A DNA stretch of 64,000 bases, from positions 1 through 64,000 of the forward strand of contig PWFC01000083.1 of NCBI GenBank assembly GCA_003554025.1, read 5' to 3'. The first letter of the stretch is position 1; the number at the start of each line of letters is the position of its first letter. This DNA is from Mollicutes bacterium (lineage in GTDB: Bacteria > Bacillota_I > Bacilli_A > Izemoplasmatales > Izemoplasmataceae). The position numbers and the translations under genes were made by a program. Below are positions 3,531 to 33,433 of this stretch, one piece after another. The notes under the pieces were generated by a model. That model searched no databases. It was given only the letters and a program-made list of their open reading frames with translations, and was not told the DNA's origin.

Positions 3531-5222
3531 ATGCAAAAAGAAAAGGAACGTCAACAACAATACACAGAGCGTCAAATCGAGATGGAGAACAAGCTTTACA
3601 GTAGAAATTTCACAAAGTGCGGGTTTGACTTGAATCCTTTTGTGTCCTTTACAACGGGCATTTTGGTGTTGGTTTTCATTGTGTACGCGGTGGTCGCAAA
3701 CGCCGGCTTATTCGGTCTTGCACCTGCCGATGAAACCTTGCAAAACATGAGACAGTGGGTTGTTTCGAACACGGATTGGGTGTTTGTTTTCGCGGTGAAC
3801 TTCTTCATCGCGCTGTCTGTGTTCTTAGCGTTTTCCAAACTCGGCCGCGTGCGACTGGGCGGCATGAAGGCGAAGCCGGAGTTCTCGAACTTCGCTTGGT
3901 ATTCCATGTTGATCAGCGCCGGCATGGGCATCGGGCTTATGTTTTGGGCGGTCGGCGAACCGCTTACGCACGCTCAAGAAGGGACGCCTATTTTCGGGGG
4001 TGTGGATTCCTATGTTTCCGCGCTTGCGTCAACCTTTTTGCATTGGGGGTTTCACGCTTGGGCGATTTATGCCATCATGGCGCTTTCTTTAGCCCATTTC
4101 GCTTACAACAAGAAACTCCCGCTTTCTTTGCGGTCAATATTTTACCCGATATTCAAAGAACGGGTTTTCGGCAGGCTCGGAGACATCATAGATTTAGTGG
4201 CCGTGCTTGCGACGCTTTTCGGCCTTGCGACCTCGTTGGGGCTCGGCGTGCAGCAAATAAACAGCGGCCTTGGTCATTTGACCGGCATCACGGTATCGCC
4301 TCTTATGCAAGTTGTGCTGATTATCGTCATCACCGCCGTTGCGGCAATCTCCATCATATCGGGCATCGATAAAGGCGTCAAAAAGCTTTCGAAGACCAAT
4401 ATGAAACTCGCGTTTGGGTTCATGCTGGCCATCTTGATTCTTGGTCCGACGCTTTTCATTTTCCGTCTTTTCGCCAGTTCGTTCGGCACGTATTTGGCGG
4501 ACTTGCCGGCGGCCTCGTTCTTCTTGTCGCTTGCCGAAGGCTCAGAGCGGGATTGGCAGGGCGCATGGACCATCTTCTATCTCGCATGGTGGATATCATG
4601 GAGCCCTTTTGTGGGGATGTTTATCGCAAGAGTGTCCAAAGGGCGTACCATCCGTGAATTCATCATTGCGTCCTTGTTTATCCCTTCGCTTCTTTCCTTT
4701 GTTTGGTTGAGCGTATTCGCGGGCGCCGCTTTTGAAATCGATGCGGGCAATGGTGGGTTGTACGCGCTTGTTGGCGACAATTTGCCGGGTGCGCTTTTTG
4801 AACTTTTAAACATGCTTGACGTTGCGCTTTTCCAAGGAGTCGTCTCCGTCTTGCTTACATTGCTCGCTACGGGCATCATCATCTTTTTCTTCATCACCTC
4901 AAGCGATTCGGGGTCGATTGTGGTTAACGCCATCACCTCGGGCGGCAAGACTTCCACAAAATCCCGTCAACGCGTGTTTTGGGCGGTCATCGAAGGCGCG
5001 ATCGCTTCGGTGCTGATCATCATCGGAGGACAGCGCGCGCTTGAAACGCTTCAAGACGCGGTCATTTTAACGGGGCTTCCGTTTGCGCTTGTGCTTATGG
5101 CGATGAGCGTCTTATTGCTTCGGAGTTTGCAAAAGACCTACCGACGACAGAAGAGTTTGAAAGAAGAGCGAAAATTCCAAAGCCTCTTTGAAGCGACAGA
5201 CGTTACCCATTGCCACGATTGA
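3531..5222 (+). CDS. BCCT family betaine/choline/carnitine transporter
   Basis: This 563-residue integral membrane protein has twelve predicted membrane segments after a short charged N-terminus. Family hallmarks are GMGIGLMFWAVGEPLTH (near residues 126-142) and the tryptophan-rich signature with FYLAWWISWSPFVGMFIARVSKGRT (near residues 350-374). It resembles OpuD/BetT-type sodium-coupled glycine betaine uptake proteins and probably imports compatible solutes for osmoprotection; the exact substrate is not readable. The ATG at 3531 is preferred to the longer frame because it follows GAAAGGGTG and a near-consensus promoter that would lie inside the longer version. The C-terminus is short and basic. 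A strong terminator follows. A second, ABC-type betaine importer is encoded at 51.6-54.0 kb. Confidence 0.93.
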   Translation: MQKEKERQQQYTERQIEMENKLYSRNFTKCGFDLNPFVSFTTGILVLVFIVYAVVANAGLFGLAPADETLQNMRQWVVSNTDWVFVFAVNFFIALSVFLAFSKLGRVRLGGMKAKPEFSNFAWYSMLISAGMGIGLMFWAVGEPLTHAQEGTPIFGGVDSYVSALASTFLHWGFHAWAIYAIMALSLAHFAYNKKLPLSLRSIFYPIFKERVFGRLGDIIDLVAVLATLFGLATSLGLGVQQINSGLGHLTGITVSPLMQVVLIIVITAVAAISIISGIDKGVKKLSKTNMKLAFGFMLAILILGPTLFIFRLFASSFGTYLADLPAASFFLSLAEGSERDWQGAWTIFYLAWWISWSPFVGMFIARVSKGRTIREFIIASLFIPSLLSFVWLSVFAGAAFEIDAGNGGLYALVGDNLPGALFELLNMLDVALFQGVVSVLLTLLATGIIIFFFITSSDSGSIVVNAITSGGKTSTKSRQRVFWAVIEGAIASVLIIIGGQRALETLQDAVILTGLPFALVLMAMSVLLLRSLQKTYRRQKSLKEERKFQSLFEATDVTHCHD

Positions 5223-19174: not shown

Positions 19175-20578
19175 ATGCTGTTTTCTAGTGTGAACTTTCT
19201 TTATTATTTCCTTCCCTTGCTGTTGCTTGTTTATTTTAGCGTTCCCAGCAAATGGAAAAACTTGGTTTTGTTCCTCTTCAGCTTGGGTTTTTACTATTAC
19301 GGCGAACCGATTTATACGCTTTTGCTGCTGATGTCTTCGGTTTCCGGCTACGTTCACGGATTGCTGATTGAACGTTGCCGGAACACCCGGTTCGCCACCG
19401 TCCCTTTGGTTTCCTCGATCGTGGTCGGTCTTGGCGCACTAATCTTTTTCAAGTATTCGGATTTCTTTTTGGAAAACGTCAACCGGCTGTTTGATTTTGA
19501 GCTGGGGTTGTTGGGCGTTGTTCTGCCGATTGGCATAAGCTTTTACACGTTTCAGGTGCTTTCTTACACAATTGACGTTTACCGGGGGAAGGTAAGCGTA
19601 CAGCGCAATATGCTGGATTTTATGACGTATGTCGCTTTGTTTCCGCAATTGATTGCCGGTCCGATTGTCCGTTATGAGACGATTGAGAACCAGTTGAAAG
19701 AACGAAAACATAGCGTTGAAGACGCTTATGTGGGCGTCAAAAGGTTTATGGTCGGTTTGGGCAAAAAGGTGTTGATTGCCGATACGCTTGCGGAAGTCGG
19801 CATGCATTTTGACTCCGCTCACGAGGCTTCTGTACTTTTTTATTGGCTTGCGGCCATAACGTTTACTTTGCAAATCTACTACGATTTTTCCGGGTACAGC
19901 GACATGGCAATTGGGCTGGGCCGAATATTCGGCTTTCGCTTCCTTGAGAACTTCAACTACCCCTATATCGCCAAAAGCGTAAGTGAGTTTTGGCGACGCT
20001 GGCACATTTCTTTGGGCGAGTGGTTCAGACGCTATGTTTACATCCCCATGGGCGGCAACCGTGTCAACGTGTTGCGTCTTGTGAGAAACTTGCTTATTGT
20101 TTGGTTTTTGACCGGTTTTTGGCACGGAGCCGCATGGAACTTTGTGGTTTGGGGGCTGATGTATGGCGTGTTGCTCATCGTGGAGAAACTAGTGATCAAA
20201 GACAGGATGGAATCCGTACCGGTCGTTTTGCGTCATGCGTATGTGATGTTTGTGGTCGTCATCGGTTTCGTCTTGTTTAATGCGGGCAGTTTTCAAGAGG
20301 GTTTCAACAACATTTTGGGCATGTTCGCCTTTCGCGAGGCGCCGCTTGTGAACACCGAATCTCTATATTATTTGAGGAGCTACGCAGTGGTGATTGTCTT
20401 GGGCGTGTTCGGTTCGACGCCATTGTTGAAAGGAACGCTGAAATGTTTGCGTAAACATCCCTTCGCGAGACGAAGTTTGGCCGTTTTGGAACCGGCTGTG
20501 ATTGTTATCTTGCTTCTTATGGTTACGGGCAATCTTGTGGATGGAACGTTCAACCCGTTTATATATTTCCGCTTCTGA
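19175..20578 (+). CDS. MBOAT family O-acyltransferase (AlgI/DltB-like)
   Basis: This 467-residue polytopic protein has MBOAT hallmarks: the SVSEFWRRWHISLGEWFRRYVYIPMGGNR region (residues about 267-295, within which RWHISL is the conserved core) and the catalytic-His segment FWHGAAWNFVVWGLMYG (near 317-333). It should move an acyl group, usually acetyl, across the membrane to a surface polymer. It is downstream of a lipoprotein and followed after 16 bases by a DHHW/AlgJ-like gene, the usual partner. The target polymer (wall, capsule or lipid glycan) is unknown. Confidence 0.92.
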   Translation: MLFSSVNFLYYFLPLLLLVYFSVPSKWKNLVLFLFSLGFYYYGEPIYTLLLLMSSVSGYVHGLLIERCRNTRFATVPLVSSIVVGLGALIFFKYSDFFLENVNRLFDFELGLLGVVLPIGISFYTFQVLSYTIDVYRGKVSVQRNMLDFMTYVALFPQLIAGPIVRYETIENQLKERKHSVEDAYVGVKRFMVGLGKKVLIADTLAEVGMHFDSAHEASVLFYWLAAITFTLQIYYDFSGYSDMAIGLGRIFGFRFLENFNYPYIAKSVSEFWRRWHISLGEWFRRYVYIPMGGNRVNVLRLVRNLLIVWFLTGFWHGAAWNFVVWGLMYGVLLIVEKLVIKDRMESVPVVLRHAYVMFVVVIGFVLFNAGSFQEGFNNILGMFAFREAPLVNTESLYYLRSYAVVIVLGVFGSTPLLKGTLKCLRKHPFARRSLAVLEPAVIVILLLMVTGNLVDGTFNPFIYFRF

Positions 20579-20594
20579 TGAAAGGAGAAGCTGT

Positions 20595-21692
20595 ATGTTC
20601 GCACGTATCAAACATTTGTCCGTTTTGATAGTATTTGCCACTGCATTGTTTTTGGGAATGGTCTTAAACCTCGTTTCCGCCGATCAAGAGTATTCGGAAG
20701 ACGAAAGAAGAAGGTTGAAACAATTCCCTGTTCCTTCGTTTGAAAACATCACAGACGGAGAGTACTTCCAATCGCTTGAAGCGTACTCTTTGGACCAATT
20801 TCCCTACCGCGAAGCGTTTCGGAGTGTCAACGCCATGACCAGGCTGAAGCTCTTCAACCAGACGGATGTGAACGGCTTGTACATCATTGAGGAAAGCGTG
20901 TACCGCATGCGCTATCCTTTGAACGAGTCTTCCATCGACCATGCGGGCAGCTTGATTTCTTCGATCTATGCGGATTATCTTCAAGGCATGGACGTGCATT
21001 TCAGCATCGTTCCCGATAAAAATTACTTTGTCGCCGAAGAACACGGCTACCCGCACATGGATTATGGCGCGCTTGAGACTACCTTGCAAGATGCGTTGAA
21101 AAATATGTCCTATATTCCACTTTTTGACAAGTTGGACATTGACGATTATTACCGCACCGACCATCACTGGCGTCAGGAACGCGTTGTGGATGTTGCGGAG
21201 TACTTTTTGGAGTCGCTCGATAGAGAATATCCCAAACAAAACCCTTATGAATTTCACAACCATTCTCCGTTTAGGGGTTCGTATTACGGGCATGTGGCCA
21301 TGCCGTTAGAGCCGGATACCTTGACGTATTTGACAAACGACACGATTGCGCGCTCTTATGCGCGCAATCCCGTCGACGATACAATCCGCCACGTGTATCA
21401 AAAAAGCGCATTAAAGGGAGTCGACTCATACGATGTATTTTTAGGCGGCGCCCATCCGTTTACCGAACTGATCGATCCAAAGTCCGATTCGGATGAAGAG
21501 CTGATTTTGTTTGGCGACTCCTACGCCAACAGCCTTGCGCCGCTTTTGCTTGAGGGGTATTCCAAAATCACATTTGTGGATTTGAGGCATGTCTCACCGA
21601 ACATCTTGGACCAATACATTGACTTTTCCGACCAAGACGTGCTGTTTTTGTATTCGACCAGTATCTTGAACGATAGCTGGATGTTGGATTGA
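20595..21692 (+). CDS. DHHW (AlgJ/AlgX-like) family protein
   Basis: This 365-residue protein has an N-terminal membrane anchor (about residues 7-27) and a large extracytoplasmic domain. The motif DYYRTDHHWRQE (near residues 178-189) is the DHHW family signature. ELILFGDSYANSLAPLL (near 310-326) is an SGNH-hydrolase-like GDS block with candidate nucleophile Ser. It probably completes O-acetyl transfer outside the membrane after the MBOAT step. The start at 20595 has AAAGGAGAAG upstream; the longer frame overlaps the MBOAT 3' end without a ribosome site. A perfect palindromic terminator follows. Confidence 0.88.
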   Translation: MFARIKHLSVLIVFATALFLGMVLNLVSADQEYSEDERRRLKQFPVPSFENITDGEYFQSLEAYSLDQFPYREAFRSVNAMTRLKLFNQTDVNGLYIIEESVYRMRYPLNESSIDHAGSLISSIYADYLQGMDVHFSIVPDKNYFVAEEHGYPHMDYGALETTLQDALKNMSYIPLFDKLDIDDYYRTDHHWRQERVVDVAEYFLESLDREYPKQNPYEFHNHSPFRGSYYGHVAMPLEPDTLTYLTNDTIARSYARNPVDDTIRHVYQKSALKGVDSYDVFLGGAHPFTELIDPKSDSDEELILFGDSYANSLAPLLLEGYSKITFVDLRHVSPNILDQYIDFSDQDVLFLYSTSILNDSWMLD

Positions 21693-21705: not shown

Positions 21706-21733
21706 AAAAAGCCGCCAAATTTGGCGGCTTTTT
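21706..21733. terminator. Bidirectional terminator between convergent units
   Basis: A 28-base palindrome (A5-GCCGCCAAATTTGGCGGC-T5) lies between the DHHW gene and the leftward N-formylglutamate amidohydrolase-like gene and can serve both. Confidence 0.9.
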
Positions 21734-22566
21734 CATGGGATAATCGGTTTTTTGAGGGGTTTCTCGGTATGGAGTGCGGTTGAATAAAGCGGGTTTTCGA
21801 AGGCGATGTTCGAAAGGCAGTGAAAGAGTTTCCCTTTCAAAGCGTCGAGTTTTCTTCGTTCCGTCGCTGTGGGTTGGACCGGCTTTGCCTTGCGGTCGGG
21901 TTCATATAGTTTTCGATTGATTTCCAACTGGAACCAGGGGATGTTGCGGAGGCCGCCCATGGTTTTGATGATTTGTCCGCCTTGAAAAGGCGCATTTAAA
22001 AGCACTGTGTCTTTGCCGAAGGACTCTTCCAAAATCTCTTTGAAATCAACAAGCAGTTCAGCCGGGCAGGAGAGAGGTTCGCCTTCGTATTCTCCTGAAG
22101 CGTTGCCTCGGTTTGAGAGGCAAAAAAGCGGCCTTTTCAAAGCGTTTTTGTCAAAGGGGTCCGAAGGAAGCATGCTGTGGCAATCGATGCCGATTTTGAC
22201 ATTTTGATCGTTTGTCGCATGATGAAGCTTGTCGTAATAGGGGTCGTAGTAAGTTTGCAGAAGGTGTTTCAAGGCATCGCCATGCGGGAAAGTTTTCCAG
22301 ACCGGGTTTAGGCGTAGGGTAATTTGTTTGACGACTCCATCGGGACGGAAGTCGGATTTGTCCCGGTTGAGGTCGACGATTAGCCTAGGGATGTCGGCGG
22401 CGACGGTGTGGGCGATGAAGTCCCCGAAATCGAAAAGGTAGCGCGTCCACAAGTCGCCGTCTGTCAAAGTTTCTTGAAGAGACGGCAAATAGGAATCGGT
22501 CAGCTCCTTTGGCACGTGCATGCCGCCGTGCGGGATGGAGAGAATGAGCGGGAGAGGTTTTCCCAT
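21733..22566 (-). CDS. N-formylglutamate amidohydrolase (FGase) family enzyme
   Basis: This 277-residue protein carries the FGase zinc-hydrolase pattern from end to end. It has LILSIPHGGMHVP (first His), PRLIVDLNRDKSD, the IGIDCHSM metal motif, NAPFQGGQIIKTMGG and the late WFQLEINRKLY. All expected motifs are present, so the enzyme is probably active. The family hydrolyses N-formylglutamate and relatives and shares a fold clan with gamma-PGA hydrolases. It is the last gene of a leftward operon, four bases after a GGT-like gene, whose first gene is an ATP-grasp/M20 fusion. No histidine-degradation genes are nearby. A gamma-glutamyl or other acyl-amino-acid substrate is therefore more likely than the Hut pathway, by inference. 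Confidence 0.87.
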   Translation of the reverse strand: MGKPLPLILSIPHGGMHVPKELTDSYLPSLQETLTDGDLWTRYLFDFGDFIAHTVAADIPRLIVDLNRDKSDFRPDGVVKQITLRLNPVWKTFPHGDALKHLLQTYYDPYYDKLHHATNDQNVKIGIDCHSMLPSDPFDKNALKRPLFCLSNRGNASGEYEGEPLSCPAELLVDFKEILEESFGKDTVLLNAPFQGGQIIKTMGGLRNIPWFQLEINRKLYEPDRKAKPVQPTATERRKLDALKGKLFHCLSNIAFENPLYSTALHTEKPLKKPIIP

Positions 22567-22570
22567 GGTT

Positions 22571-24175
22571 TCACCTCGGTCCTGCCGCCGAGCCGTCCCT
22601 TCGGGGGTCGGCCACGCCGGTGTGGGTTTTGCGATTCACGCTTCTAGGCAGTTCGATCGCTTGGACGCAGCCTAGATAGAAACTGTAGGCGCCTCTTTTT
22701 TTAAGGGAAAACCCCGTTTCGGAGAATACGCCGGAGATTCTTGTGTCATAACGGGGCCACTCAAGCTGGAGTTGTTTTTTCTCGGTGGTGTGGAACCTCG
22801 GGGCGGCGATGGCTTGGTCCAAAGGTTCGCCCATGTCCAGATAACGGATGAGAACTTGTGTTAGCGTGGTGGAAATCCGTTCGCTTCCCGGACTGCCAAG
22901 CACGAGTATCGGACGTTTCCGATAGGTGATGATTGTAGGGGCGACGCTGCTCCATGGCCGGTTGCGGGGAAGAAGATAATACGGATGGGTTTTGTCTTTG
23001 TATTCGTAAGCGCTCATGTAATTGTTGTAGAAGAATCCTAAGTTTTTGGCGGTTCTTTTGGCGCCGAAGACTCGTTCGATCGACTGGGTGATGGCGACGA
23101 TGTTCCCGAATCTGTCGCTAATGGAAAAATGCGTCGTTTCCCCTGTGGCTTTTATTTTGGGTGGCGCTTGCGACACAGTATGGAAGCCGACGATTCGTTC
23201 GATGGTCTCTTTGATGTTTTGTGAGTGGGCTTTGTCGGTCATTTTCTTGTCGACTTGCTGGAAGTAGAGGTCGGGGTTTTGCGGCATTCTTTTTCGGTCT
23301 CTTAGCGTCAGTTGGAACGCTAGGGCCATAATGAGATTCCCCAAAGCTTTGTTTGGATCGATGGTTTCCGGCGGGAATTGTTCTAAGATGTTCAAAAGTT
23401 GCACTAGCACTCTCCCCGCGCCGGGAGGCGGGAAGGTGATCACATCGTATTTTCGATAACTTCCCTCTAAGGGCGACCGTTCGATGGGAATGGGGATTTG
23501 GGAAAAATCCTCGCTTCTCAACCAGCCGTTTCGCTCCACCATGTCGTTCACAATCGTTTCTGCGATTTCTCCTATGTAAAAATCCTTCCAGCCGTTTTGT
23601 GCAAGGAGCCTCATGCAATGTGCGAGTTCTTTTTGCACAAGCGTGTCTCCCGGTTGCAAGGGGATGTCGTTTGAAAAAAAGTTGCTACGTATTTGTTCGT
23701 CCATTTTCAATTCTTTTTGGTTTTTTTCAATGGCGCTATGAATCAGGGGAGTGATTTTTACGCCCTCTTCGGCCAGTTGGATGGCCGGTTTTAGAAGAAC
23801 TTCAAGCGGCAAGGAACCATACGTGTCGCGCAAATATCCATAGAAGGCTACGCTCGAGGGAAGCGTCGTTGCGCTTAATCCGACCATCATCGGGGTTTTT
23901 GGAACCTTTGAGGGTTGATAGTGGTAGGGCGCGAAGGAAGAGCCGTCCAAGACGAAATAGCGTTTTTCTTCCGCAAGGTATATTAGCGCCATTGATTGCC
24001 CTCCGATTCCCGAAGCCTGAGGCTCGCTGACGCCTAGTGCATAAGAAACCGCGACCGCGGCGTCGAATGCGTTTCCGCCCGCATCGAGAATTTGGGCGCC
24101 GATTTCGGATGCACAAGCAGAAGCGCTTGCGACCATTCCGTTTTTGCTGGAATGGGAGGGGGAGTTTCGTTCCAT
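22571..24175 (-). CDS. Gamma-glutamyltransferase-like Ntn-hydrolase, cytosolic, atypical substrate site
   Basis: This 534-residue protein has the GGT fold. GMVASASACASEIGAQILDAGGNAFDAAVA (residues 13-42) is followed by the processing site GETTHFS with predicted nucleophile Thr347. The large subunit would be residues 1-346, and GSPGSERI lies near the oxyanion region. Two features are odd. There is no signal peptide, although many GGTs are secreted. The conserved D-x-R-E-x-A-P loop, whose Arg binds the gamma-glutamyl alpha-carboxylate, reads DGSSFAP (residues 77-83), so the Arg is a Ser. Either it is an acylase-like relative with another substrate, or the carboxylate is held differently. The start at 24175 has AAGGAG upstream. 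It sits 10 bases after the ATP-grasp/M20 gene. Confidence 0.88.
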   Translation of the reverse strand: MERNSPSHSSKNGMVASASACASEIGAQILDAGGNAFDAAVAVSYALGVSEPQASGIGGQSMALIYLAEEKRYFVLDGSSFAPYHYQPSKVPKTPMMVGLSATTLPSSVAFYGYLRDTYGSLPLEVLLKPAIQLAEEGVKITPLIHSAIEKNQKELKMDEQIRSNFFSNDIPLQPGDTLVQKELAHCMRLLAQNGWKDFYIGEIAETIVNDMVERNGWLRSEDFSQIPIPIERSPLEGSYRKYDVITFPPPGAGRVLVQLLNILEQFPPETIDPNKALGNLIMALAFQLTLRDRKRMPQNPDLYFQQVDKKMTDKAHSQNIKETIERIVGFHTVSQAPPKIKATGETTHFSISDRFGNIVAITQSIERVFGAKRTAKNLGFFYNNYMSAYEYKDKTHPYYLLPRNRPWSSVAPTIITYRKRPILVLGSPGSERISTTLTQVLIRYLDMGEPLDQAIAAPRFHTTEKKQLQLEWPRYDTRISGVFSETGFSLKKRGAYSFYLGCVQAIELPRSVNRKTHTGVADPRRDGSAAGPR

Positions 24176-24185
24176 CGTTTTCTCC

Positions 24186-26333
24186 TTAATTTTCGTCTTT
24201 CGTAAGCAAATATTGCGCGAGAAGCATCGTTTTTTGCACAAGCTCGGTACGGTGAATGGATTCTGTGGGTGTATAGAGATGTTTCGCGCTTGGTCCTAGG
24301 CCGCATAGGACCGGAGTGTTTTCGTCGACCATTCCGGCGGCCGAGGGAAGAAGCGTGGATTCTCCCCGCAAGGGGAGGTTCCATTGTTCGGCGATGCCTT
24401 GAAAGGCCTTAAGAAGAGGGGTTGTGCCTTTCTTTTTTGTCATGGGAGGCCTGTCTTCCAATTTCTCAAGATAGGTTTTTATGCCTTTTTGCTTGGACAT
24501 GAAGAGTTTTCGAATCGCTTTTTCATAACGCAAGGCTACTTCTTGGTCCATGAACGCAATGATGAGGGTTGCGCTAACTCGATGCGGAATCAATACGCCG
24601 TATCGGGAGGTTTCGATGTTTTGAAGGGATATTGCAAGCAAAGGCGTATCTTTGCCCAACGCCCTTATGTCCGCCGTTTTTTTGAGGAGGTAATCGAGGG
24701 CGTTTGCGGTGTGGTTTTTCGCGCCGATGCGCATCGGGGAGCCCTCGACGACGATTTTGATTTTAATGGCGCCCCTTCGTTGATAAACGACAGTGTTGAG
24801 GTTGTACCCCGGTGCCATGACGATGACCTCGCCGGCTTCTTTGCTTGCGAGTCTGAGCGCTTCGCCGCTATAACGCATGCCGTTGCCTTCATCGCCATAC
24901 ACAAACACGCCGATTTTTTGGTGGTTGAGTCTTCCCGCTTGACGCAAAGCTTCTAACGCTTTTATCATCACCATCATTCCGCCGCGGCTCGATGCGATGC
25001 CGGCGCCATACATGTATTCGGGTTCTATGCGAAAGGGAATCGGATAAGCGCCTCTATCGCCCGGGATGTCGATGGGGACGACAAAAAGGACGCCGTTTTC
25101 AAAGCCTTGTTCGGTGGTGAAAAGCCAATGCGACGTATCGTCGGTTCGACGACGGTCTTTTGTGAGGTTCATTTTTTTCAAGCGATATTCAAGTTTGCGG
25201 ATGAAAGTTTGTTTGGAGACAAGGTCTTCGGTTGCGGTATAAAGATTCGTAAGGCTTCGAAGTTCTCCTTCCATCCGGTCGCGTTGTTGGGTGATATAGG
25301 AGAACGCGTGTGAGCCTTCTTCCGTGAGGCCGCCTCCGTCGATTGAAGGGCCGAAATACCGTTGCGAAGCGATTTCAATAATTCGTTGTATCAAACGGTT
25401 GTAAGAGAGCCCGGTTGCGGAGGCCGCTTTGACAAAGGACGAGTTTTGGCTCAAAGAAGCCATGGAGTTCACTTCAAGCACGAAAGGATTCCCATGTTTG
25501 TCGACGCGGAAATCCACTCTTGCACTGTCGAAGCAGCCCAAGGTTTTGAAAGTTTGAACGGCAATTTCCTGCATTTTTTTGGTGAGTTCTTCGTCCAAAT
25601 CCGCCGGACAAACGGTTTTGACGCGAGGCAGAATTTTGTTGGTTTTGTCTTCGTAGGTGTAGATGTGTTCGCCGTTTTCAAAAAGCATTTCCAATGGAGG
25701 AAGGGCTTCTACGGGGTTGTTTCCTAAAAGGGCAATGTTGATTTCGCGTCCGTCTACGTATTCTTCAACGAGCGTAGGCGACTTGAATTCTTCGTATATG
25801 TTCGTAACGCCCGCAAGCAGCTCTTCTTGATTTCTAACTATGCGTAGTCCGAAGGATACGGCTTCGTTTTTCGGTTTCACAATCAATGGATAGTTCAGGT
25901 TTTCCTCCATCGGGCTTTCGGGGGTTTCAAGGACTGTGAATTTTGGTGTGGGAATGCCGCGCTGCATCAAAATCATCTTGGTGATGACTTTGTCAAGGGC
26001 GATGGCGTGTGTTTCGGGGCCGGACCCCACATACGGTATGCCTAGCATCTCCAAAATGGCGGGGATGTGCATGTATCGTCCTTTTCCCTGAATGCCGTAG
26101 CTCAAGTTGAAAACAAGTCCAGGGCGTTCGCCGGAGAGAACGCGCGGCATGAACTTCTCCAAGTTTGCCACGATGTTTTTGTCGCCTTCGAACAGCTTGA
26201 CTTGGTGGTCATGCTCAAAAAGGGCATCCTTCACTTTTCGGATGGTGCTCATCCCGTATCTTTCTTTGTTCGGTATGCCGAAGAGATTGATGACCGCTTT
26301 CGATTCCCGGTTGTAGACAATCGCGATTTTCAT
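24186..26333 (-). CDS. Ddl-like ATP-grasp ligase fused to degenerate M20 peptidase domain
   Basis: This 715-residue fusion has a D-Ala-D-Ala-ligase-like ATP-grasp in residues 1-325. It shows GLVFNLSYGIQGKG, IPAILEMLGIPYVGSG, LIVKPKNEAVSFGL, VEEYVDGREINIA and FRVDKHGNPFVLEVNSM (ATP/Mg ligands). The usual NTMPG loop is NSMASL, so the acceptor differs from D-Ala. Residues about 360-715 align by pattern with M20 (CPG2-like) peptidases, but metal ligands are missing. His becomes Pro420, the bridging Asp becomes Ser448, the second Glu of DEE becomes Gly483 and the next Glu becomes Ala507. Glu482 and His685 remain. The domain is probably catalytically dead and may bind peptide. The start at 26333 follows TGGAGA. 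It is first in an operon with GGT-like and FGase-like genes. Confidence 0.85.
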   Translation of the reverse strand: MKIAIVYNRESKAVINLFGIPNKERYGMSTIRKVKDALFEHDHQVKLFEGDKNIVANLEKFMPRVLSGERPGLVFNLSYGIQGKGRYMHIPAILEMLGIPYVGSGPETHAIALDKVITKMILMQRGIPTPKFTVLETPESPMEENLNYPLIVKPKNEAVSFGLRIVRNQEELLAGVTNIYEEFKSPTLVEEYVDGREINIALLGNNPVEALPPLEMLFENGEHIYTYEDKTNKILPRVKTVCPADLDEELTKKMQEIAVQTFKTLGCFDSARVDFRVDKHGNPFVLEVNSMASLSQNSSFVKAASATGLSYNRLIQRIIEIASQRYFGPSIDGGGLTEEGSHAFSYITQQRDRMEGELRSLTNLYTATEDLVSKQTFIRKLEYRLKKMNLTKDRRRTDDTSHWLFTTEQGFENGVLFVVPIDIPGDRGAYPIPFRIEPEYMYGAGIASSRGGMMVMIKALEALRQAGRLNHQKIGVFVYGDEGNGMRYSGEALRLASKEAGEVIVMAPGYNLNTVVYQRRGAIKIKIVVEGSPMRIGAKNHTANALDYLLKKTADIRALGKDTPLLAISLQNIETSRYGVLIPHRVSATLIIAFMDQEVALRYEKAIRKLFMSKQKGIKTYLEKLEDRPPMTKKKGTTPLLKAFQGIAEQWNLPLRGESTLLPSAAGMVDENTPVLCGLGPSAKHLYTPTESIHRTELVQKTMLLAQYLLTKDEN

Positions 26334-29471: not shown

Positions 29472-29551
29472 TTTTGGCGAAAATTCGCCTAATTCTATGA
29501 GTTTCAGGGGACGGCTTTATTTTTTCATTAAAAATTTATGGGGGAATGATC

Positions 29552-32500
29552 ATGAAGAAACTGTTTGTCGTAGTATTGCTTGCACTTTCTACATTGGCCT
29601 TGGCGGCTTGCAATGTTCGAGTTGTGGAACAAGCCACCATCACATTGACGAGCGATTTGGAAGAAGCGGTTTTGACCATCGCTCCTTCGGCGACGGTAGA
29701 TGTGGACACCGAAGTGACGGTGGAGGCGTCCGAAATCGATGGGTACACGTTCACCCACTGGGAGAATGTGGAGACCGGAGTCGAGGTGTCCACAGACAGG
29801 GTGTACACGTTCCCTGCGGTGGCCAATATGACGCTTAAGGCGGTCTACCTTGAAGACACCGCGGTAGAGGATGTGGACATAGTATTGAGCAGCGACTTAG
29901 GAGAGGCTGTGTTGAGCAAAACCCCGACAGGACCGGTGGCCCCCGGGACCGAAGTGACGGTTTCGGCTTCGAGCGTTTCCGGGTATGTCTTTTTGCATTG
30001 GTTGGATTCCGATGCCGAAGCCGTGTTGACGGAAAACGCCTCGCACACCTTCTCTTTGAGCCAAAACATGAATCTGGTGGCAGTGTATGCGCAAGAAGCG
30101 GTCGACGATGTGAACATCGCTTTTGAAAGCAATGTTTCGGGCGCTACGATGACAAAGACTCCAACAGGCGCCGTGGCTCCGGGAACGGAGGTCACCATTT
30201 CCGCTTCTGAAGAAAGCGGCTATGTCTTTGAACATTGGCTGGATGTGTCCACAAGCGCCGTGGTTTCCGAAAACCGCTCGCACACGTTTGTGTTGAACCA
30301 AAACAGGACACTTAGGGCCGTTTATCTGACCGAAGCCGCGCATGAGGCCAAGTTGGTTCTTGAAGCCTTTGACGGCGACTTGACGCATCTTGAGCCGTTG
30401 ATGGCGAACTTTATGGCCAGCGACGCGTTCACCATCGAATTCGAGATGGTGATGCAAATTGCGGAGGCGGCGATTCTATCCAGCGAAGCCGAACGGCATG
30501 AAATGCGTTTTGTCTATCGCAACGTGGAATTTGAAGACACGATGATGCACGAGCTTGAGGTCTACGCGAAGCTGCCCGATATGGACATTCCGGGAGACGC
30601 GTTGGAACTTCATTTCATCGTCGTTGAACACGAGGATTATATCGAAATGTATGCGGATGTGGGGGTCTTGCTCGACCAATTGAGCATGGAGACCGGCATG
30701 AATCTGCGTTTGATGCTTGGCTTCGCCAACGATTATGTGTACGTGAACCTTCCGCATGAGATGGTCGAGGATTTCTTTGGCGAGCTTTTGGTCATGTTTG
30801 AAGACGAGATGGGCGAAATTGATTTCGACCCGGCGATGATCGATGTCGTGTTGGCGGAGTTGCATCGTTTTGAAAAATACTTTACGTTGGATTATTATGA
30901 CGCCCATGAGGACCTTGATCTCGACATGGAACGAGAAGACAGCCATATCCATACCATCATGACGATGAACTCGGATTTGATTAAAGCTTTGTTTGAGGAT
31001 CTCTTCGAAGACGTTTATTCCATTGCGTATCTCGTTGCCGAAGAGGGAGAACTTCCACCTTATGAGGATTTCATCGCTTCGCCCGATTATGCGGAAATGA
31101 TGCTTATGCTGGGCATGATCGAACCGTTTGCGATGACGATGACGTATGAGCCTTCTACGGAAGATTGGATGCGTTTGTCTCTTGATCTTCATGAGATTCT
31201 TGAACCTTATGGCGACGGCATGGACGTTGTGGAAGAGTTCTACATCAACATTGATTTCCATAGCGACGCCGAAATCACGTTGCCAACCGATGCGAAAGAC
31301 GTCACAGACCTCGCCAAAGAGATGTTGCAATTCGCTTTGATGATGGAGGTTATGCAGTTTTCTTACAGAGTCCTCCATCAACCGGACGTCCCGGAAGATA
31401 CCTACACGCTTTCCGACCTTGATGCTTTAGGGTATTCCTTCAACATGCCGTTTATCGACCGCGAGATGAGCACGGTGACGGTCGCTTCGGACAAAACGGA
31501 TTTCGAACTTGACTTTTATCTAAGCAGCAACAACGAAGCGCTGTTTCATGCGCCGATTTCGCTTGATGAGCTGGACGACGCATTCGACTTTGACGAACCG
31601 GGAGATTTGGACAGGGAGGGCTTTTTAAGCATTATCGGCTTTATCGACGAAGAGAATATCTCTTTGTATTTGATTGCGTTGGAGTTGCTGGCGTTCATGC
31701 GCGAAGAACTTCAAGATCCCCTCGTGCCCGATGGCGATCTTTACCCGGAATTGATCCACGAAATTCCGCGCTACGAGGGGGCGGTAATCGTCCGGACGTA
31801 CGATTGGACAGAATATGGCAGCGTAGAGGTTCATTACGTCGCCGAGACCACCGTGTCCTCCGTGTTCACCCACTACATCAATTTCTTTGATGAAGACGAC
31901 GGTTGGGACGTCATGATTGTGGATAGCGAATCGAGCCATTTCGGAATGCACGTTTGGCATGAAGATTTGGAGGGTGTATCGTTTTGGGTTTATGCCTACG
32001 ACGGTTCAGGCTATCAAAACGCCATCTCTATTGAAGTGACGAAGACGTTCCCGCCGGAACCGGACTTTCCGGATGACGATCAAGGGGATTTGCAGGATAT
32101 AGAAAGCGTTCCCCGCTATCCGGGCAGTGTGCTCTATTACGGCGATGACGATGGAGACAACCAATACCGCACATATCTTGTCGCGGACGCTGAGCCAAGT
32201 TTGGTGTGGACGGATTACGCTCATTATTTAGAAACCGAGACGGATTGGATGCTTGAATGGTCGTATTACGATGAAGGCGATGATCACGGAACAATGTTTT
32301 TCCGCTCTGAAACGCATGAGCTTTGGATCAACGTTTTCCGCAGCCACACATTCCCTGATGCCACCAAATACCATGTGGGTTTGATGAAAATCGAGGAACC
32401 CGAGTTTCCCGATGAAGACCAAGTGGATTTGGACGACATCGCCGAAGTGCCTCGTTATACGGGTAGCGTAATGGTCGATGGATGGGACGATGATTTTTAT

Positions 32501-33433
32501 GACTATCAAGACCGCACGTATCTTGTGGACGGGACGCATCCTGAAGACGTCTACATCTTCTACTTCAGCCTTTTTGACGGCAGCCCCGATTGGGTGATGG
32601 TGGAAGGCGGCTACGATGAAGAGGACGAGTGGGGTTATATGCGTTTCGATACGGATACGCATACGCTTTGGATCGACATATCCGACAGTCGCTCGTTTCC
32701 CGGCGCCACATGGTATTTTATAGAACTGCAAGAAATCGTAGAACCCGAATTCCCTGAAGAAGACCAGACGGACCATGGTGACATTGAGGCAGTGCCTCGA
32801 TATCTTGAGAGCGTTTTGGTCAATGCATGGGACTCTTATGACGAAACCCGTCAAGAACGCACATATCTGATCGACGAAACGGATCCCGAGGATGTTTGGA
32901 CGCATTACATTGACCATTTCAACGACGATCCTCTTTGGACGTTTAATTTTGGCAATTACTACTCGGATGACGACATGGGGTATATGAGGTTCGATAAGGA
33001 TACGCATACGCTATGGATACATGTCTATTTTAGCGATATGTTTCCAACCGCTACCCGCTACTATGTAGTTTATGAAGAGTTGGAGGGATTCCCCGAGGAT
33101 GACCAAGTGGATTTGGACGACATTGACGGTATCGAGCGGTATATGGACAGTGTCATGACGGGCGGATGGGACTATGAGACGGGCTTGCTGCAAGAACGAT
33201 TCTATCTTATCGATTACACCGACCCCGGCGATGTGTGGGACCATTATTTTGATACGCTGGATGCGAATCCGGATTGGACTTTTGACGATGGAGAGTATTC
33301 GGACGATGATGAGACGGGCTATTTGTGGTTTTATAGCGATTCGCTGAGCCTCTATATAGGGGTTCAAAGAAGCTCTGATTTCCCGACCGCAACAAGTTAC
33401 TTCATTCAAATCAACGAGCGTCACGAGGCATAA
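29552..33433 (+). CDS. Giant acidic repeat lipoprotein (InlB B-repeats plus YPGSV-type repeats)
   Basis: This 1293-residue surface lipoprotein has a signal with lipobox LALAAC (Cys20). Three 79-residue repeats (about residues 27-264), each with YxFxHW and an AVY end, match InlB B-repeat/Listeria-Bacteroides-type repeats. A long acidic middle (about 265-729) resembles lipoprotein folds but is not recognised. Five tandem repeats of about 113 residues (about 730-1293) follow. Each starts near a D-D/E-x-x-x-V/I-P/E-R-Y-x-x-S/A-V motif and contains a YLxxxxxPxxVWxxY segment. Overall composition is extremely Asp/Glu-rich. The start at 29552 is preferred over 29546 because of spacing from GGGGGA. 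It is probably exposed on the membrane for adhesion or ligand binding. It is flanked by unrelated genes, with its own promoter and terminator. Confidence 0.9.
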   Translation: MKKLFVVVLLALSTLALAACNVRVVEQATITLTSDLEEAVLTIAPSATVDVDTEVTVEASEIDGYTFTHWENVETGVEVSTDRVYTFPAVANMTLKAVYLEDTAVEDVDIVLSSDLGEAVLSKTPTGPVAPGTEVTVSASSVSGYVFLHWLDSDAEAVLTENASHTFSLSQNMNLVAVYAQEAVDDVNIAFESNVSGATMTKTPTGAVAPGTEVTISASEESGYVFEHWLDVSTSAVVSENRSHTFVLNQNRTLRAVYLTEAAHEAKLVLEAFDGDLTHLEPLMANFMASDAFTIEFEMVMQIAEAAILSSEAERHEMRFVYRNVEFEDTMMHELEVYAKLPDMDIPGDALELHFIVVEHEDYIEMYADVGVLLDQLSMETGMNLRLMLGFANDYVYVNLPHEMVEDFFGELLVMFEDEMGEIDFDPAMIDVVLAELHRFEKYFTLDYYDAHEDLDLDMEREDSHIHTIMTMNSDLIKALFEDLFEDVYSIAYLVAEEGELPPYEDFIASPDYAEMMLMLGMIEPFAMTMTYEPSTEDWMRLSLDLHEILEPYGDGMDVVEEFYINIDFHSDAEITLPTDAKDVTDLAKEMLQFALMMEVMQFSYRVLHQPDVPEDTYTLSDLDALGYSFNMPFIDREMSTVTVASDKTDFELDFYLSSNNEALFHAPISLDELDDAFDFDEPGDLDREGFLSIIGFIDEENISLYLIALELLAFMREELQDPLVPDGDLYPELIHEIPRYEGAVIVRTYDWTEYGSVEVHYVAETTVSSVFTHYINFFDEDDGWDVMIVDSESSHFGMHVWHEDLEGVSFWVYAYDGSGYQNAISIEVTKTFPPEPDFPDDDQGDLQDIESVPRYPGSVLYYGDDDGDNQYRTYLVADAEPSLVWTDYAHYLETETDWMLEWSYYDEGDDHGTMFFRSETHELWINVFRSHTFPDATKYHVGLMKIEEPEFPDEDQVDLDDIAEVPRYTGSVMVDGWDDDFYDYQDRTYLVDGTHPEDVYIFYFSLFDGSPDWVMVEGGYDEEDEWGYMRFDTDTHTLWIDISDSRSFPGATWYFIELQEIVEPEFPEEDQTDHGDIEAVPRYLESVLVNAWDSYDETRQERTYLIDETDPEDVWTHYIDHFNDDPLWTFNFGNYYSDDDMGYMRFDKDTHTLWIHVYFSDMFPTATRYYVVYEELEGFPEDDQVDLDDIDGIERYMDSVMTGGWDYETGLLQERFYLIDYTDPGDVWDHYFDTLDANPDWTFDDGEYSDDDETGYLWFYSDSLSLYIGVQRSSDFPTATSYFIQINERHEA
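29632..30342 (+). repeat. Three InlB-type coding repeats, period 237 bases
   Basis: Units begin near 29632, 29869 and 30106. They share the order TLTSDLEEAVL-like strand, then an EVTVEAS-like strand, then YxFxHW and a final LxAVYL. Units 2 and 3 are closer to each other (both contain KTPTGxVAPGTEVT) than to unit 1, suggesting a recent duplication. Confidence 0.85.
31739..33430 (+). repeat. Five tandem coding repeats, period about 339 bases
   Basis: Units begin near 31739, 32072, 32411, 32756 and 33095. The first is the most diverged. The common core is RY-x-x-SV, then a YLxD segment, an aromatic-rich helix and FPxAT near the end. Similar P-x-Y-P-G-A proteins with one such domain exist; five in tandem form a rod-like array. 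Confidence 0.85.

Follow-up and report, generated by a model that had tools for sequence, protein, structure and literature searches.

An ATP-grasp ligase fused to a predicted metal-free M20 peptidase fold in a three-gene cassette of Izemoplasmatales

Where a ligase fold and a peptidase fold act on one kind of molecule, they usually belong to two separate enzymes that work against each other. On the ligase side, the ATP-grasp enzyme DdlB of E. coli has the ATP/Mg residues K97, K144, E180, E187, R255, D257, E270, and N272, and, in addition, the residues E15, H63, S150, and Y216, which form its D-Ala1 site. On the peptidase side, CPG2 and the other M20 metallopeptidases feature a two-domain fold with a general-base Glu and an Arg in the RPP motif that holds the substrate carboxylate. 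The metal ligands of CPG2 are His112, Asp141, Glu176, Glu200, and His385. The GGT of E. coli is an Ntn-hydrolase with the nucleophile Thr391, the residues Ser462/463 and Gly483, and, furthermore, Arg114, Gln430, Asp433, and Gly484. Pocket positions vary among real GGTs—a change of N411 to E is seen in B. subtilis GGT—and the exchange D445A in the B. subtilis enzyme abolishes transpeptidation and leaves hydrolysis (PMC8062742). Dipeptide-making enzymes are encoded with a peptidase-family protein in the NAGGN osmoprotectant operon (PA3459–PA3461; PMC8070244).

The locus described here lies in a window of 64,000 nucleotides—the whole stretch of DNA that was analysed—from a Mollicutes bacterium of the order Izemoplasmatales. 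On its minus strand, the window carries a gene for an ATP-grasp/pseudo-M20 fusion protein of 715 aa (24186–26333), as judged by its ORF, Pfam, and orthologues. The frame is open from an ATG at 26333 to a stop at 24186–24188, and the N-terminus MKIAIVYN is common to all full-length relatives. The protein consists of a ligase half, residues 1–325 (25359–26333, minus strand), which is a Ddl-like ATP-grasp, and a pseudo-M20 half, residues 344–715 (24189–25304, minus strand), with a catalytic and a lid/dimer domain. Pfam places Dala_Dala_lig_C at residues 122–320 (2e-41), Peptidase_M20 at residues 429–710 (1e-9), and M20_dimer, the lid/dimer domain, at residues 518–615 (1.6e-5). Searched as a profile, the M20 half finds CPG2 with an E-value of 1.2e-11, and in MAFFT it can be aligned end to end with seven plasmid M20 proteins; as judged by these alignments, the M20 fold is complete and of the CPG2 type. 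An earlier note on this DNA had read the gene as a Ddl-like ligase and a CPG2-like M20 fold in one protein, and Pfam, the CPG2 match, and five intact copies bear this out. Given the E-values and the presence of these copies in different genomes, chance is excluded. The domain architecture and the three-gene setting are new and are built from known families; a search of the open literature, exclusive of the Iyer 2009 amidoligase survey, found no text on an ATP-grasp/M20 fusion.

The ligase half has the same fold and ATP/Mg machinery as E. coli DdlB, with all eight ATP/Mg residues identical. However, the D-Ala site is lost: E15, H63, S150, and Y216 are replaced by K, Y, V, and T. The identity to DdlB is 27% (27–33% to Ddl proteins), and the peptidoglycan context of DdlB is lacking. 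Among the curated Ddl models, the highest score is 188.5 bits, where the cut-off is 243, and the ligase half stays below every Ddl cut-off. In the tree, the ligases of the cassettes and of rhizobial plasmids lie apart from four Ddls (support 87/94), and the cassette ligases form one group (98/96). As judged by sequence, the ligase half belongs to a non-Ddl ATP-grasp clade. The NSMASL loop pointed out in the earlier note is present, but it is a weak marker, since the rhizobial relatives carry NSMPGL or NSMAAL. In the genome, which is 91.6% complete, a search for a Mur ligase gave no PF01225 match, and the only sign of a second Ddl-like ligase was a frame of 451 residues that matches in part.

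The metal site of the M20 half was read from alignments with CPG2 and the seven plasmid M20 proteins, made by HMM and by MAFFT. An AlphaFold2 single-sequence model of the M20 half alone reached a pLDDT of only 34 and was set aside, so the residue assignments are those of the alignments. Pro420 (25074–25076, minus strand, as all following codons) replaces the ligand His112 of CPG2, Ser448 (24990–24992) replaces the bridging Asp141 and is Ser or Thr in the relatives (Thr in one), Gly483 replaces Glu176 next to the retained general base Glu482 (24885–24890 for both), and Ala507 (24813–24815) replaces Glu200 and is His in two relatives. These four exchanges and the retention of Glu482, which is invariant among the copies, had been predicted in the earlier note and hold in both alignments. 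The note had also listed His685 as a retained ligand, which is two residues off: the last ligand column, His385 of CPG2 in the HSxxE motif, holds Tyr687 in the MAFFT alignment (His685 to Tyr687, 24273–24281) and Phe in one relative, and residue 685 varies, with H, N, R, K, A, R, and H in the seven copies compared. Hence, the proposed dead, metal-free fold is upheld by the alignment with all five ligands replaced instead of four—the columns read P, S/T, G, A/H, and Y/F in the fusion copies, with none of the five ligands kept. The lid His and lid Asn are replaced by Arg535 and Val, respectively, and a substitute set of metal ligands conserved in all copies was not seen in the alignment. The M20 half is, on the basis of these columns, metal-free. 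It differs from CPG2 and the other M20 metallopeptidases in the missing metal ligands and lid His/Asn and in being joined to a ligase, and shares with them the two-domain fold, the general-base Glu, and the carboxylate Arg, which is the invariant Arg628 of the RPP motif (24450–24452); Asp422 is kept as well. The former active site remains a conserved set of S/T448, E482, G483, R487, R535, R628, and S664, and all of these except position 448 are invariant across the five full-length copies.

The fusion gene is followed on the minus strand by two further genes in the order fusion, GGT, FGase, with spacings of 10 and 4 bp, an operon that the earlier note had overlooked. The gene of the GGT-family Ntn-hydrolase (22571–24175) starts 10 bp past the fusion stop and was assigned by Pfam, curated models, and alignment. 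The gene of the N-formylglutamate-amidohydrolase (FGase) family protein (21733–22566) starts 4 bp past the GGT stop and was assigned by Pfam and curated models. The cassette GGT has in common with E. coli GGT the Ntn nucleophile, with Thr in the T391 column of all aligned sequences, as well as Ser462/463 and Gly483. In contrast, R114, Q430, and D433 are replaced by S, Y, and A, and Gly484 by Ser, so that the γ-Glu pocket is remodelled. Its score on TIGR00066 is 354.1 against a cut-off of 357.85. Considering the effect of D445A in B. subtilis GGT, the cassette GGT is expected to be a hydrolase, and because the pockets of real GGTs vary, γ-glutamyl substrates are possible. The FGase protein scores 64.7 bits on TIGR02017, the model of the N-formylglutamate deformylase HutG, against a cut-off of 278.75. 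On inspection, none of the three operon proteins bears a visible signal peptide, and the fusion, the GGT-like, and the FGase-like protein are, therefore, probably cytosolic. A second GGT-family paralogue (G000:C83:20744-21928), which is also present in most genomes of the order, lacks the Arg114 of E. coli and has His-Thr in place of Ser462-Ser463; it may thus not function as a GGT.

The search for the same fusion in other genomes that had been proposed for this gene yielded it in six of 90 genomes of the order, which belong to three genera of one family. Five of the copies are full-length and one is a C-terminal fragment at a contig edge. Intact orthologues occur in genomes G005, G002, G028, and G555, the C-terminal fragment in G017, and a second fusion fragment in G002. 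The latter genome carries two different cassette copies (L022 and L025, on contigs C35 and C7), each cut by a contig end. No further copy turned up in the genomes sampled from the class (395) and from the phylum (392). Furthermore, a scan of one genome-contig collection returned only an ordinary Enterococcaceae Ddl, two viral-contig scans gave no match, a phage search gave 25 Ddl-level matches with 26–34% identity for the best listed and nothing closer, and PADLOC gave no defence match. Where the contigs reach far enough, the relatives have fusion, GGT, and FGase in collinear order. Among the 90 genomes, the FGase profile finds a match in the six with the fusion and in none besides. In these same six, the cassette-type GGT reaches more than 870 bits, the edge copy of G002 being partial; in other genomes of the order, the GGT profile finds only a distinct paralogue near 200 bits or less. 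All three profiles, hence, match the same six of 90 genomes at cassette-level scores. The chance of two genes falling on the same six of 90 genomes is 1 in 6e8, a figure that is only indicative because the genomes are related; with all six cassettes in one family, the co-occurrence is not independent. An assembly error is ruled out by five intact copies in different genomes, and a decaying gene by intact full-length frames in five genomes and by purifying selection on both halves. One in-frame TAA interrupts the cassette GGT of G028 (L023, G028:C78, about 4122–4145); the copy may be broken, or the stop may stem from a sequencing error.

The nearest relatives of the ligase half are stand-alone ligases in 13 rhizobial plasmid records of a searched collection of 72,556, with 42–45% identity over the whole ligase half; examples are WP_011090946.1 of Bradyrhizobium barranii and WP_010875202.1 of NGR234. 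The other plasmid records listed, true Ddls included, reach at most 35% identity. The rhizobial ligases share the signatures VIN.FG and GIQG..R..H.P with the ligase half, but lack the M20 half and have a KamA-type radical SAM and a 7TM protein in place of the FGase. A described function was not found for these stand-alone ligases. The closest ligase and the closest GGT relatives in the collection are neighbours in one Bradyrhizobium operon, which also contains the KamA-type and 7TM genes and misses the FGase gene, and the changes to Tyr430 and Ser484 are common to the cassette and Bradyrhizobium GGTs. This ligase–GGT pairing is an independent link for the cassette. An Rlo-type system, raised by the 7TM protein of Bradyrhizobium, was rejected because retropepsin and RloB are both missing from the window cassette. 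Some rhizobial relatives lie near a gene for a KamA aminomutase or a diaminobutyrate transaminase, and genes for diaminobutyrate, diaminopropionate, or β-amino acids occur near some of them as well as near a more distant Thioflavicoccus ligase, whose placement in the clade is not firm in the tree. These neighbours give a weak lead on the chemistry. On the Thioflavicoccus plasmid (L086, 5557–11038), the Ddl-like ATP-grasp is clustered with SbnA, an ornithine-cyclodeaminase-family gene, diaminobutyrate transaminase, and KamA, which looks like a diamino-acid peptide pathway. In two Sinorhizobium plasmids (L043, 8478–11011; L049, 6606–8993), a second, PRK02186-like ATP-grasp lies directly upstream of the ligase relative; that of L043 also has an L-amino-acid-ligase C-terminal domain.

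The constant position of the fusion gene beside the same two amide-cutting enzymes points to a build-and-cut pathway for a small molecule. The fusion would be the first gene of a cytosolic operon for a small amide—a dipeptide, an isopeptide, or an N-acyl amino acid. The ATP-grasp half, with its intact ATP and Mg residues, would activate a carboxylate as acyl phosphate and join it to an amine. The M20 half, as a pseudoenzyme without metal, would bind a ligand resembling an amino acid or dipeptide, leave it uncut, and either deliver the acceptor or hold the product. The GGT-like Ntn-hydrolase and the FGase-family amidase would deacylate the same molecule or its derivatives, forming protect/deprotect or synthesis/turnover pairs. 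To a three-gene cytosolic operon of this kind, in which a small amide is made and cleaved and the metal-free M20 domain serves to bind substrate or product, we give about an even chance. It would mark a so far undescribed pathway in a lineage without cell-wall genes, with a tie to uncharacterised ligases on rhizobial plasmids. The cassette resembles the NAGGN operon in that dipeptide-making enzymes travel with a peptidase-family protein. However, the enzyme families differ, and the NAGGN peptidase is a separate protein, whereas that of the cassette is a dead fused domain.

A role of the fusion in cell-wall metabolism, as D-Ala-D-Ala (or D-Ala-X) ligase, is hardly credible: its top curated models are Ddl families and its identity to Ddl is 27–33%, yet the scores below every Ddl cut-off, the replaced donor-site residues, the separate side of the tree, and the genome without a Mur ligase all speak against it. 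It is likewise quite improbable that what the operon makes and degrades is a capsule-like polymer or an oligomer of γ-linked glutamyl units. CapD is a member of the GGT family, the poly-γ-glutamate hydrolase PghL has a fold close to that of the FGase (PMC6506827), and a CapA-family gene follows the NGR234 ligase; nevertheless, this is the only CapA neighbour, the cassette is without CapB/CapC, the γ-Glu pocket residues are changed, and signal peptides are missing by inspection. As for the M20 half, peptidase activity with the metal on shifted residues or by a metal-free mechanism is very improbable, since all five ligand columns and also the lid His and Asn are replaced, even though Arg628 and the general base, Glu482, remain.

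A role of the M20 half solely as an oligomerisation or docking scaffold—its lid dimerising the ligase or holding the GGT-like and FGase-like partners, and the old active site empty—is a serious possibility, though on the unlikely side. In favour of it, the lid/dimer domain can be recognised, evolution is about twice as fast in the M20 half as in the ligase half, and the M20 half is absent from the rhizobial relatives. The latter proteins stop where the ligase stops and are homologues that do without the M20 half, which is, hence, an added module outside the catalytic core and dispensable for catalysis. Against a pure scaffold stand the invariant former active-site positions, for which it would have no need. 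Pairwise dN/dS is about 0.08–0.10 in the ligase half and about 0.15–0.20 in the M20 half, values that are approximate with dS near saturation; both halves are thus maintained, the M20 half more loosely. With a domain that appears metal-free, intact, selected, and conserved in its former active-site set, a binding role is the natural reading. Presentation of the acceptor, as suggested in the earlier note, is plausible, and it is equally conceivable that the domain retains the product, has a regulatory or dimerising function, or serves as a docking site for the partner hydrolases. A more specific version of the binding role, which we consider distinctly unlikely, has the pseudo-M20 half as a substrate-holding domain derived from a former hydrolase of the ligase's kind of product—a peptidase that became a component of the very enzyme opposing it—with a diamino- or β-amino-acid amide as the product of the operon. 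A fixed fusion with the peptidase metal lost and a conserved pocket kept would offer a clear and testable example of how a hydrolase can be recruited for binding.

Two neighbouring regions of the window, both on the plus strand, may be appreciated in addition. At 29546–33433, a protein of 1295 residues features a lipoprotein-like start and two repeats, a short N-terminal one and a C-terminal one, each in several copies, and a relative of it is found at the same place in G005. At 19175–21692, a membrane O-acyltransferase-like gene is followed by a probable AlgJ/AlgX-like gene, and these genes adjoin the cassette in G005, too.
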